Shown: one piece after another, positions 3,166-10,747 of the stretch
Layout: the number at the start of each line of letters is the position of its first letter
Position numbering within the stretch: position 1 is the first letter of the stretch
Source: an uncultured Eubacteriales bacterium
GTDB taxonomy: Bacteria > Bacillota_A > Clostridia > Christensenellales > Aristaeellaceae
Direction of reading: 5' to 3'
DNA length: 10,747 bases
Assembly: GCA_902803675.1 (NCBI GenBank)
Contig: CADCQZ010000335.1
Coordinates: forward strand, 1-10,747
The notes under the pieces: generated by a model
The model's database searches: none
The model's input: only the letters and a program-made list of their open reading frames with translations
Told to the model about the DNA's origin: nothing
Translations under genes and position numbers: made by a program

Positions 3166-4059
3166 TCAGCGCGGAGCTGTGCAGCAGTCCTCTTCGAGCG
3201 GATTGACGTGGATCATCACGTGCTTCACGTTGGGGAATTCCTTTTCCACGGCGCTGTGGACCCTCTCCGCGATGCCATGGGCCTCCCGGAGCGAGATATC
3301 CGGCCGCACCGCGATCTCCAGGTCCACATAGATCCGGCTGCCGAACTGCCGGGTGCGCAGCAGGTCTATCCGTTTCACGCCTTCCTGAGAGATGATGAAG
3401 TCGCGCAGCTTATGCTCCAGGACGGTGCCGCCGGAGGTGTCCAGCATGCGGTCCAAAGCGTCCCGGGAGATATCGAAAGCCACCTTGAGGATCAGTGCGC
3501 AGATCACCAGGCTGGCGATGGGGTCCATGATGGGGAAGCCCAGCCGGGCCAGGAGGATGCCGGCGAAGGAGCCCACCGAGGAGATGGCGTCCGACCGGTG
3601 ATGCCACGCGTCCGCCTTGAAGGCCGCCGAATCCAGCGCCCGGGCGTAGTGCATGGTGTACTGGTACATGGCCTCCTTGACCACGATGGATACCACCGCC
3701 GCGATCAGGGGCAGGGCCGTGGGGATCTCAAGGCTGCCGGGATCGGAAAAGAGCTTGCGCAGGCCCGTCAGGCCGATACCGGCGCCGGTGCCGGCGAGGA
3801 TCAGCCCCAGCAGCAGGGAGGCTACGCACTCCAGGCGCTCGTGCCCGTAGGGGTGCTGCGCGTCCTCCGCGCGCCGCGACAGGCGCACGCCCACCCAGGC
3901 GATCAGGGTGGCGAACACGTCCGAAAGGGAATGCACCGCGTCCGATACCATGGCGCCGGACCGGCCCAGCACGCCGGCCAGCAGTTTGAACGCCGCCAGC
4001 AGCACGTTCCCGAAGATCCCTACGCGGGAGAGACGGTCAAAGATCTTTTTTTCGTCCAT
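3166..4059 (-). CDS. Cation diffusion facilitator (CDF) family metal exporter, probably Co2+/Ni2+
   Basis: This 297-residue protein is a full-length CDF transporter, an inner-membrane proton-antiporting exporter of divalent metals working as a dimer. Six membrane segments are followed by a cytosolic ferredoxin-like domain from about residue 210. The transport site has the HxxxD/HxxxD pattern: H43 and D47 in DAVHSLSD (TM2), H153 and D157 in AWHHRSD (TM5). Other family marks are HPYGHERLE at 69-77, MDPIASL at 178-184, and C-terminal metal-ligand candidates H261, H280 and H284 (IHVNP). It ends in a DCC motif. HxxxD/HxxxD sites occur in Zn, Cd, Co and Ni exporters, so sequence alone does not fix the ion. 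The NiCo-type riboswitch in its leader points to cobalt and nickel. ATG 4059 is preceded by GAGGT (4066-4070) at 6 bases. Confidence 0.95.
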   Translation of the reverse strand: MDEKKIFDRLSRVGIFGNVLLAAFKLLAGVLGRSGAMVSDAVHSLSDVFATLIAWVGVRLSRRAEDAQHPYGHERLECVASLLLGLILAGTGAGIGLTGLRKLFSDPGSLEIPTALPLIAAVVSIVVKEAMYQYTMHYARALDSAAFKADAWHHRSDAISSVGSFAGILLARLGFPIMDPIASLVICALILKVAFDISRDALDRMLDTSGGTVLEHKLRDFIISQEGVKRIDLLRTRQFGSRIYVDLEIAVRPDISLREAHGIAERVHSAVEKEFPNVKHVMIHVNPLEEDCCTAPR

Positions 4060-4106: not shown

Positions 4107-4153
4107 TTAAAAAAGCGCGTTCCGGAACATTCCGCTGTCCCGCAGACGCGCTT
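4107..4153 (-). terminator. Riboswitch-controlled terminator in the CDF leader
   Basis: On the minus strand AAGCGCGT (4146-4153) pairs with ACGCGCTT (4113-4120), 8 bp. A smaller CGGA/TCCG hairpin lies inside, and a run of six U follows (4109-4114). The hairpin sits between promoter and start codon, so it must be overcome for the exporter to be made. Its 5' arm is also the 3' arm of aptamer helix P4, and its interior contains the conserved GGGACAG. Aptamer and terminator therefore cannot form together, which fits metal-induced antitermination. Confidence 0.85.
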
Positions 4154-4233
4154 AAAAAGCTATCCTGCTGCCGATCGAGTCGGCCCGGCCACGGGCCTTC
4201 CCCGCCGGGGAAGCCCTGCCTGATCAGATGGGT
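4135..4233 (-). promoter_or_regulatory. NiCo (czcD-type) riboswitch aptamer
   Basis: NiCo riboswitches bind Co2+ or Ni2+ cooperatively in a four-way junction and turn on metal exporters, classically czcD-type CDF genes. Read on the minus strand the leader shows the conserved blocks in order: CUGAUCAGGCA (4217-4227), then GUGGCCGGGCCG, then CGGCAGCA, and lastly UCUGCGGGACAG (ending at 4135). These match the junction strands I remember from the Erysipelotrichaceae crystal-structure RNA. Helices: P2 pairs 4207-4216 with 4193-4203 (one bulge, GGC loop); P3 is GCCGA/UCGGC within 4170-4184; P4 spans 4143-4167 with a GCUU/AAGC tip. P1 is weak: I see CUG/CAG plus CC/GG across an internal loop. Position, downstream gene and the overlapping terminator all agree. 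The family match was not confirmed by a covariance search. Confidence 0.85.
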
Positions 4234-4265
4234 GTAAGAAGGGTGAGACGCTTTGGATCGGCGCA

Positions 4266-9241: not shown

Positions 9242-9871
9242 TCAGCCCTGCGCGGTGATCCGCTCGAAGTCCGACGCGGGATGCTTGCAGATGGGGCAGA
9301 TAAAGCCCTCCGGCAGCTCCTCGCCCACGAATTCGTACCCGCACACGGTGCAGCGCCACACGGTCTTCCCGCCTTGCGCAGTGTCTGCGGGTCTGGGCCT
9401 GGGCTTGATGTGCTCCTGATAATAGGTGTAGGTAGCGGAGGGGGACTTTGTGAGCACGTCCATGTCCGTCACGGCCGCGACGAACAGGATGTGGCTGCCC
9501 AGGTCCAGGGCCTGTTCCACCCGGGCCGAGATGAAGGCGTTGGTGCCCTCCGTGACCGCGAGGGTGCCGTTGCCCACGCGCCTGACCGGATCGAAGCCGG
9601 CGAACTTGTCCGTGTCCCGCCCGCTCTGGAACCCGAACCGTTTAAAAAGATCGAAGGACGCGTCCTGACTGATCACGGAAGCGGTGAAGACGCCGCTTTT
9701 TTCGATCATCCCGCAGGTGTGATTGGCCTTGTTCACGGCCACGGTGACCCGGTTGGGATCGGAGGTGACCTGGGCCACGGTGTTGGTGACGCAGCCGTTG
9801 TCGCGGTCGGATACGCGTGTGGTGAGGATGTACAGGCCGTATGAAACGGCATACATGGCTTTGGGGTCCAT
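9242..9871 (-). CDS. Flavin reductase domain fused to a rubredoxin-like domain
   Basis: This 209-residue protein has an N-terminal FMN-binding flavin reductase (split-barrel) domain, about 1-150, marked by SYGLYILTTRVSDRDNGCVT, VAVNKANHTC, GVFTASVISQDAS and a DLGSHILFVAAVTD strand near the end. A C-terminal rubredoxin-like module has CTVC (174-177) and CPIC (192-195), binding one iron. The same order occurs in the high-molecular-weight rubredoxin of acetogens, which passes electrons from NADH to flavodiiron oxidases, so an oxygen- or NO-detoxifying electron-transfer role is likely but inferred. The spacing between the two CxxC pairs is short, as in rubrerythrin tails. The frame runs upstream to 9994, but AAGGAGG (9878-9884) marks the real start. 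ATG 9871 sits 6 bases from it and ATG 9874 only 3, so I prefer 9871. Confidence 0.9.
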   Translation of the reverse strand: MDPKAMYAVSYGLYILTTRVSDRDNGCVTNTVAQVTSDPNRVTVAVNKANHTCGMIEKSGVFTASVISQDASFDLFKRFGFQSGRDTDKFAGFDPVRRVGNGTLAVTEGTNAFISARVEQALDLGSHILFVAAVTDMDVLTKSPSATYTYYQEHIKPRPRPADTAQGGKTVWRCTVCGYEFVGEELPEGFICPICKHPASDFERITAQG

Positions 9872-9877
9872 CATGAT

Positions 9878-9884
9878 CCTCCTT
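9878..9884 (-). promoter_or_regulatory. Shine-Dalgarno sequence that fixes the flavin reductase start
   Basis: AAGGAGG on the minus strand, followed by ATC and two ATG codons in a row. Spacing favours the second ATG (9871). It excludes the upstream extension to 9994, which overlaps the promoter. Confidence 0.88.
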
Positions 9885-9926
9885 TTGCCGTCCGTCATGG
9901 CGGCGGACAGGATGTTTTCTTCCCTG

Positions 9927-9955
9927 ATTATACCAGACGGCACGGCGGAAAACAA
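9927..9955 (-). promoter_or_regulatory. Promoter of the flavin reductase-rubredoxin gene
   Basis: On the minus strand TTGTTT (9950-9955), 17 bases, then TATAAT (9927-9932) with a TGG extension just before it. The leader would be about 50 nt. It is divergent from the ABC-F promoter, with the two -35 boxes only about 21 bases apart. Confidence 0.78.
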
Positions 9956-9976
9956 CCGATCCCAAATTCCCGCGCC

Positions 9977-10005
9977 TTGACAAAAGCCGCTCAAAACGGT
10001 ATGCT
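9977..10005 (+). promoter_or_regulatory. Promoter of the ABC-F leader and gene
   Basis: TTGACA (9977-9982), a 17-base spacer and TATGCT (10000-10005) form a strong promoter. Transcription should start near 10012, leaving about 194 nt of leader before the ABC-F start codon. Confidence 0.85.
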
Positions 10006-10042
10006 GTTCCCATCAAAGAGAAAGGCAGGCTCAAGGGCACTG

Positions 10043-10060
10043 ATGAGGATCCGCGGCTGA
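10043..10060 (+). CDS. Five-codon leader peptide MRIRG of the ABC-F attenuator
   Basis: ATG at 10043 opens a five-codon frame, MRIRG, ending in TGA at 10058-10060. AAGGG (10033-10037) lies five bases upstream, so it can be translated. Residues 2-4, Arg-Ile-Arg, fit the +X+ motif at which macrolide-bound ribosomes stall, known from ErmD-type leaders containing MRLR. A ribosome stalled with Ile in the P site would cover 10052-10058, which is the 5' arm of the leader hairpin. The peptide would be a regulatory stalling sequence with no function after release. The frame is short enough to arise by chance; its position in the leader is the main support. Confidence 0.6.
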   Translation: MRIRG

Positions 10061-10134
10061 CGAACGGCATTCGGTCTCCCTTCCGGAGCGAAAAGATCCG
10101 GAGGGCTTATTACCGTTGCCGGAGGGGAGCCGCG
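10052..10134 (+). promoter_or_regulatory. Long leader hairpin sequestering the antiterminator strand
   Basis: CGCGGCT (10052-10058, end of the leader peptide) pairs with AGCCGCG (10128-10134). Inside, CGGCA/TGCCG and CGGT/ACCG pair, and CCC-TTCCGGA (10078-10087) pairs with TCCGGAGGG (10097-10105) with one bulge. The 3' arm overlaps GGGGAGC (10124-10130), which could instead pair with GCTCCTC (10173-10179) of the terminator. Breaking the outer stem by a stalled ribosome would free it. Confidence 0.65.
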
Positions 10135-10171
10135 TTCGTTTAAGGCGCCGTGTTTCGGCCAGGCTTTTGCG

Positions 10172-10205
10172 CGCTCCTCCCCGGCGGGGAAGGAGCGTGT
10201 TTTCT
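10172..10205 (+). terminator. Attenuator hairpin that also buries the ABC-F ribosome binding site
   Basis: CGCTCCTCCCC (10172-10182) pairs with GGGGAAGGAGCG (10186-10197), 11 bp with one bulged A and a GGC loop, followed by TGTTTTCT directly before ATG 10206. It looks like an intrinsic terminator. Its 3' arm contains AAGGAG (10190-10195), the only ribosome binding site for the ABC-F gene, so it could act on transcription, translation or both. Confidence 0.78.
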
Positions 10206-10747
10206 ATGGTGAAGCTTTTACTGGAAGCGGATCGTATCGACAAGAATTTCGGCCCCCGGCGGCTTCTTGACATCAAACACCTGACCGTGTACGACGGGGA
10301 AAGGATCGGCCTGATCGGCGAAAACGGGGCGGGCAAGTCCACCCTGCTCAGGATCCTGTGCGGGGAGGAGGCGCCGGATGCGGGAAACGTGCGCCGGTAC
10401 GGCCCCGCCGCCCTCATCCGTCAGCAGGGGAATGCGGACGGCGCGGATGACACCCGCGTGCGGGCCGTGTTCAGGGCCCGGGATGAGCGGGAGGGCCTGT
10501 CCGGCGGGGAGATGACGAGGAACAGGATCGCCGCCGCCCTGTCCGCGCATCCGCGGCTGCTGCTGGCGGATGAGCCCACCACGGATCTGGACGGGGAGGG
10601 CATCGCCCTTCTTAAAAGCGAGCTGGAGCTTTTCCCCGGGGCCCTGATCCTGGTCTCCCATGACCGGGCTTTGCTCCGTGCGCTGTGCGGGCGGATCTGG
10701 TATCTGGAGGACGGCACGATCACGGATTTTCCCGGGGGCTACGACGC
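10206..10747 (+). CDS. ABC-F ATPase, antibiotic-resistance ribosomal protection type (3' end outside window)
   Basis: The first 180 codons of an ABC-F protein are present; the frame runs off the window. ABC-F proteins have two ATPase domains and no membrane part; resistance members bind the ribosomal E site and dislodge macrolides, lincosamides, streptogramins or pleuromutilins. Visible in order: Walker A GENGAGKST (38-46), Q-loop QQ (73-74), signature LSGGE followed by MTR (98-105), Walker B LLLADE (118-123) with PTTDLD, and the switch His in SHD (151-153). The unusually short stretch between Walker A and signature and the ADEPTT wording fit the Vga/Msr/Lsa-like resistance branch better than housekeeping EttA or Uup types. 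The interdomain linker that decides drug spectrum is not in view. ATG 10206 lies 10 bases after AAGGAG; GTG 10209 is an alternative. The drug-sensing style of its leader supports a resistance role. Confidence 0.9.
   Translation, partial: MVKLLLEADRIDKNFGPRRLLDIKHLTVYDGERIGLIGENGAGKSTLLRILCGEEAPDAGNVRRYGPAALIRQQGNADGADDTRVRAVFRARDEREGLSGGEMTRNRIAAALSAHPRLLLADEPTTDLDGEGIALLKSELELFPGALILVSHDRALLRALCGRIWYLEDGTITDFPGGYD

Follow-up and report, generated by a model that had tools for sequence, protein, structure and literature searches.

A candidate ribosome-mediated attenuator with a conserved five-codon open reading frame precedes VgaA/CplR-like ABC-F genes in rumen and gut Clostridia

We describe a leader RNA of about 190 bases ahead of an ABC-F ribosome-protection gene in a 10,747-nucleotide stretch of DNA from an uncultured Eubacteriales bacterium (contig CADCQZ010000335.1, hereafter the window), and propose, with a probability of roughly 0.8, that it acts as a ribosome-mediated attenuator of this VgaA/CplR-like gene. 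This reading is based on the anatomy of the leader, its conservation in relatives, the covariation of two competing stems (P1 and P4), the association with ABC-F genes and computed switching. The short open reading frame (mini-ORF) within the leader is presumably translated, antibiotics would stall its ribosome, and a hairpin directly before the gene (P3) would terminate transcription.

All parts of the leader lie on the forward strand. Transcription would start near 10012, downstream of a promoter (9977-10005) that agrees with the sigma-70-type pattern in 10 of 12 positions (TTGACA at 9977-9982, a 17-nt spacer and TATGCT at 10000-10005) and is the sole such match in 9400-10747 (shuffled sequences gave a mean of 0.2). 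Next come GAAAGGCAGG (10020-10029), a candidate ribosome-binding site and a conserved block in our leader alignment A1, and the mini-ORF, which runs from the ATG at 10043 to the TGA at 10060 and encodes MRIRG. An earlier note, made from the sequence of the window alone, had credited the mini-ORF with its own ribosome-binding site; the block is indeed conserved, partly through selection as GAAA served to find the leaders, but it ends 13 nt from the ATG in the window, which is long for a canonical Shine-Dalgarno (SD) sequence. Codons 4 and 5 together with the T of the stop codon (10052-10058) form the outer 5' arm of hairpin P1 and pair with 10128-10134, and the inner 5' arm CGGC (10065-10068) pairs with 10118-10121. 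A further hairpin inside P1 (10079-10105) has 9 bp in the window fold and varies in sequence among relatives. The minimum-energy fold of 10012-10230 contains both P1 helices (-99.2 kcal/mol, z -3.45), and none of 200 dinucleotide shuffles was as stable. The 3' side of P1 belongs to a switch strand (10116-10134), recognized by covariation, duplex energies and folds, which can pair either with the end of the mini-ORF or, as P4, with the 5' arm of the GC-rich, terminator-like hairpin P3 (10169-10200); in P4, GGGGAGC (10124-10130) meets GCTCCTC (10173-10179) as part of a longer duplex of -32.0 kcal/mol. The 3' arm of P3 contains AAGGAG (10190-10195), the ribosome-binding site of the ABC-F gene, whose first 180 codons (10206-10745, beginning with the ATG at 10206) are recognizable by sequence and profile matches before it runs off the window. 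The earlier note had placed promoter, mini-ORF, P1, P4 and the hairpin that buries the ABC-F SD exactly here, and the two alternative partners that it gave GGGGAGC agree with the minimum-energy fold and the P4 duplex. Its terminator holds as a hairpin with the SD in its 3' arm, but the T-rich tail is short in the window (GTTTTCT) and P3 was not among the outputs of a simple terminator scan of the window. Across 60 leaders, a run of at least four T precedes the gene in 56, and a putative terminator and/or SD-hiding hairpin is recognizable by sequence and fold.

We propose that without drug, ribosomes would clear the five codons at once, letting P1 form as an anti-antiterminator, after which P3 would end transcription; in RNA that is read through nonetheless, the ABC-F SD would remain inside P3. 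An antibiotic that holds a ribosome on the mini-ORF would cover the 5' arm of P1 with the ribosomal footprint, and the freed switch strand could then pair with the 5' arm of the terminator to form P4, the antiterminator. With P4 in place P3 could not form, so that transcription would continue and the SD would be freer.

Conservation was assessed by scanning the 180-residue ABC-F fragment against species genomes, which gave 80 loci: L001-L061, with ABC-F genes 50-71% identical, most of them in Clostridia assembled from rumen or gut, and L062-L080 (19 loci, 28-42% identical, other lineages), which were left out of the leader analysis. The usable set comprised 61 leaders (the window and 60 loci), as L021 had only 57 nt upstream and was dropped; the search pattern required GAAA with an ATG ORF after it, L059 failed this and counts as a miss, L061 was included manually, and where two ORFs fitted (e.g., L012, L014 and L045) the one in the aligned position was taken. 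A mini-ORF occupies the same place in 60 of these 61 leaders, with five codons in 57, four in two and six in one, ending in TGA (58) or TAA (2), and in all three length classes the stop stays at the P1 arm. Among the 57 five-codon ORFs, codon 2 is K in 29 and R in 25 (K/R in 54), codon 3 is I in 41 and K in 11, codon 4 is R in 43 (all CGC) and S in 8, and codon 5 is N in 33 and S in 12, with an overall range of N, S, G, D, I, V, R or K. On this sequence evidence the consensus of the family is M[K/R]IR[N/S] and stop, with M-[K/R] as the near-constant peptide feature. At least two basic residues occur in codons 2-4 of 51/57 (column shuffles had a mean of 43.7 and a maximum of 49 in 5000), an excess that base pairing does not explain. 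Of the 14 ORFs that lack Arg at codon 4, 10 have a basic residue at codon 3, compared with 1 of the 43 that have Arg there, which is how two basic residues are kept in those 51. A promoter match of at least 9 of 12 precedes 60/60 leaders, versus 2.8/60 in shuffled controls.

A second set consisted of 24 of the 83 genome copies described below, those on contigs that match none of L001-L061 in length. The mini-ORF is present in 24/24 of them (five codons in 23 and four, MKIR and stop, in one), found with a model that had been trained on leaders chosen for having a mini-ORF. Codon 2 is K/R in 23 of the 24, MYICD being the exception; one leader (L156) reaches Arg by the synonymous route of CGC instead of AGR at codon 2. 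Of 18 outside leaders tested, 16 have the promoter.

P1 and P4 covary across the leaders. On a 60-row alignment with 15 tested pairs, the outer P1 helix has 92.6% standard pairs with both sides changed at four of its seven pairs, and the inner helix has 91.1% paired cells, none changed on both sides; a candidate small hairpin GGT/ACT between SD and ATG (helix 1) has 72.5% paired cells. Over the 15 pairs there are 25 doubly changed cells against 5.8 +- 2.1 in shuffles, none of 500 being as high; as the sequences are related and no tree was used, this and the other shuffle and permutation tests overstate significance. With the structure slid along the alignment, 7-18 cells and 4-8 pairs were doubly changed, compared with 25 and 7 for the real one, so the pair count alone does not rise above the slides. 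The window is itself a covariant case, with CGCGGC/GCCGCG where most leaders have CGCAAC/GTTGCG. Duplex energies of own against swapped strands were -21.3 versus -19.0 for P1 and -21.9 versus -19.7 for P4, with 0/5000 permutations as good in either, and, for 18 of the outside 24, -22.6 versus -18.5 (0/5000) for P1; the own partner ranked at a median of 8.5 (P1) and 17 (P4) of 60. In the window, no terminator arm of the 59 other loci pairs better with the switch strand than its own. For the GC-rich end of the window mini-ORF, 33 other loci offer a better switch strand (among variant rows, 6/33 do), and its P1 is therefore strong but not specific. P1 and P4 share the switch strand and each pairs better with its own partner than with swapped ones, as a stem that overlaps the ORF and excludes the antiterminator. 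The ribosome-controlled attenuator of an ABC-F gene that the earlier note had sketched is thus supported, its mini-ORF being conserved and its stem switchable.

Several relatives, L002, L010 and L003 among them, carry a further hairpin P2 (CGTTTGG/CCAGACG) between P1 and P3, which shares the switch strand and is not present in that form in the window. By eye, a T-run comes after P2 in many relatives, giving it the look of an additional terminator, and in others TTTTTT stands after P1 itself. P2 could itself terminate where T-runs come after it.

Folding with the ORF region blocked, which the earlier note had put forward as a check, gave switching in the nascent RNA and far less at equilibrium. 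We masked a ribosome footprint of -15 to +15 and cut the nascent RNA at the terminator loop. P4 exceeded a probability of 0.3 in 7/60 free leaders and in 49, 45 and 47 of the 60 when the ribosome was placed at the AUG, codon 3 or the last sense codon, respectively, so that a ribosome stopped anywhere on the ORF would free the switch strand. The window is among the leaders whose nascent fold moves from P1 to P4 on masking; its free nascent RNA has P1 at only 0.11, with another fold instead. At full-length equilibrium with codon 3 masked, the window switches (P3 from 0.92 to 0.17, P4 from 0 to 0.72), but only 17/60 leaders move to P4 and elsewhere P3 mostly stays. Full-length equilibrium folding was accordingly rejected as proof of switching and counted as evidence against it; the small number suggests that the decision is kinetic, as is typical of known attenuators, or that the competing P2 has a role. 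An earlier nascent cut (P4 above 0.3 in 48/60 masked and 11 free) fell inside the terminator 3' arm in some rows, e.g., L002, and was replaced; with that cut, P2 exceeded 0.3 in 11/60 masked RNAs.

The gene downstream is nearest to VgaA/CplR-like ABC-F proteins by sequence. The full-length relative L002 passes the general NCBIfam model ribo_prot_ABC_F (434.9 bits, cut-off 380) and scores 472.6 with Vga_all, 432.4 with CplR and 382 with Msr_all, each below its own cut-off, so that it lies under the cut-offs of these named resistance models and has Vga and CplR as nearer relatives than Msr. The 180-residue fragment in the window scores best to NCBIfam Msr_all. The best matches among solved proteins are VgaA-LC, VgaL/Lmo0919 and MsrE, and the linker of L002, judged by eye, is two residues shorter than that of VgaA and about six shorter than that of MsrE. 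In Clostridioides difficile, the cplR leader, with mini-ORF MR[I/M], is induced by lincomycin and retapamulin according to excerpts of PMC10201436, where lincosamides and pleuromutilins are also named as stopping ribosomes just after initiation. Together with the position of L002 nearest to Vga and CplR, this induction favors, without proving, a drug of the lincosamide, pleuromutilin or streptogramin A type that acts at the peptidyl transferase center, which we regard as somewhat better than an even bet for the inducer.

A macrolide is in our judgment an unlikely inducer, though the earlier note took Arg-X-Arg macrolide sensing as the signal. The same attenuator would then serve as a macrolide or ketolide sensor, on which a ribosome holding M-K/R-I in its P site would halt, unable to accept Arg4, a +X+ arrest like that of MRLR and of ErmDL, which controls a methylase. 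The leader peptide of msrD, also concerned with macrolides, is reportedly MYLIFM, unlike the mini-ORF here. In the available text of PMC10314930, the msrD leader provides macrolide-controlled expression of an ABC-F gene and is alike in that respect; its gene is of the Msr type. Macrolides cause stalling on ErmDL and on short MRLR peptides (excerpts of PMC8298421), and these peptides resemble most members of our first set in having basic-X-basic early in a short peptide, as K/R-x-K/R occurs in 41/57 five-codon ORFs; MRIRG of the window fits, and the window fragment scores best to Msr_all. Yet the motif is not fixed in this family: only 12 of the 24 outside copies have it (by eye), MRKSN, MRKND, MRIND and MYICD lacking it. 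The alignment of related leaders that the earlier note had suggested thus supports the ORF and the P1/P4 covariation but not the Arg-X-Arg motif, which was rejected as the defining signal and kept as a rival. Codons 4-5 are moreover constrained by P1 pairing, L002 is closer to Vga and CplR, and its linker is shorter than that of MsrE. As the same excerpts state that erythromycin stalling on ErmDL does not strictly need the motif (PMC8298421), its loss here does not exclude macrolides.

Very improbable, in our estimate, is a leader in which the folds matter, the mini-ORF is untranslated and another ligand or factor controls P1: base pairing would explain codons 4-5 and the SD-like block lies far from the ATG, but in 60/61 and 24/24 leaders an ATG ORF has its stop codon at the P1 arm, and the basic residues exceed column composition. 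An amino-acid-starvation attenuator reading Arg or Asn codons is barely credible, as Arg4 and Asn5 are common but the ORF does not repeat codons for any one amino acid, codon 5 varies over eight residues and the target is a ribosome-protection gene.

Returning to the proposed attenuator of ABC-F genes, its distribution was followed with a model of P1 only (R1; copies counted at E<=0.001). R1 occurs in 82/308 genomes of one bacterial family, that of the L002 genome, as 83 copies, and in 5/297 genomes of an even order-wide sample under stricter filters. Of the 83, 77 lie directly ahead of a same-strand ABC-F match, 76 of them at 53-159 nt and one at 422 nt because its match begins only at residue 118. 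Contig ends truncate the remaining six: two show the start of an ABC-F gene (G008:C171 and G384:C6), two more are the contigs of L052 and L060 (lengths 3378 and 3824), each with a truncated ABC-F, G504:C166 ends just past the SD and ATG, and G345:C106 stops 65 nt beyond the leader. G008 has two leader copies, each before an ABC-F gene, for which a duplicate and a mixed assembly are both possible. Among plasmid records, all 1243 matches were below 60% identity, the eight of the 1243 listed lying at 35.5-37.5%.

Experimentally shown attenuators with three-codon ORFs and control of both transcription and translation have been published for vmlR (MIN) and cplR (MRI), as excerpts of PMC9226507 and PMC10201436 describe, so neither novelty nor a record for small size can be claimed for the design, and the "notably minimal system" with dual control seen by the earlier note is not supported. 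From the same partial texts, the cplR leader is alike in its mini-ORF within a 5' hairpin, a terminator that hides the SD, an ARE1 ABC-F gene and dual attenuation, and unlike in having three codons instead of five, the comparison being one of architecture (PMC10201436). The vmlR leader of Bacillus subtilis shares an anti-antiterminator with mini-ORF, an antiterminator and a terminator; it has a separate SD-hiding hairpin, SL-4, where the leader here joins terminator and SD in one hairpin (excerpts of PMC9226507). What is new, as far as searched, is the leader family itself, which is distinct, has a consensus of five codons and is absent from Rfam. No covariance model of Rfam 15 matched the window leader at gathering score (at E<=5 only a microRNA model appeared, with 20.1 bits versus a gathering score of 50), and none did so in the leaders of 20 relatives. 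Among the matches listed from open-licence papers there was no report of the family, and no study of such regulation was found for this lineage. Mini-ORF attenuation of ABC-F genes, known from Bacillus and Clostridioides, would thus be intensely conserved in dozens of species of the rumen and gut, largely uncultured ones, and the 84 natural variants (60 + 24) of a sensor of about five residues are a resource on how very short nascent peptides act with a drug-bound ribosome.

ABC-F genes without R1 have short ORFs of their own. Such genes make up 23 of 100 ABC-F hits, and of the 18 upstream regions read, 17 have a short ORF (3-5 codons) positioned as in a leader; short ORFs also arise there by chance, and visibly conserved are only M-x-I-[R/K] (8 loci) and MISR (4 loci), each before a stop. 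The former belongs to a second ABC-F paralog of the same family (L125, L130-L136), which has a conserved leader of its own; its mini-ORF reads MIIR, MIIK, MNIR, MTIR or MLIR and lies some 170-183 nt ahead of the ABC-F match. Further ABC-F homologs carry MISR (L126-L129), MKIC or MKNC (L123-L124), MRN (L122), MLVKL (L121) and MRM (L138), of which single cases may be chance; MRM fits the CplR consensus MR[I/M]. We speculate, while holding it unlikely, that each paralog has its own mini-ORF dialect (M[K/R]IR[N/S], M-x-I-[R/K], MISR, MK[I/N]C and MRM), a minimal arrest peptide adapted to whichever drug the ABC-F in question removes, the main one being selected for two basic residues in the first four codons; if true, this would be a natural code linking peptides of 3-5 residues to drug classes.

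Two neighbors in the window were also noted. The ORF at 9242-9994 on the reverse strand, divergent from the leader and bearing the motif CTVCGY...CPICKHP, is presumably a flavin reductase domain with a C-terminal rubredoxin-like domain. At 4133-4237, also on the reverse strand, a NiCo riboswitch (Rfam RF02683, 51.9 bits, E 9.9e-10) stands directly before a 297-codon ORF (3166-4059, reverse strand), which we take from its sequence to be a cation-diffusion-facilitator transporter.
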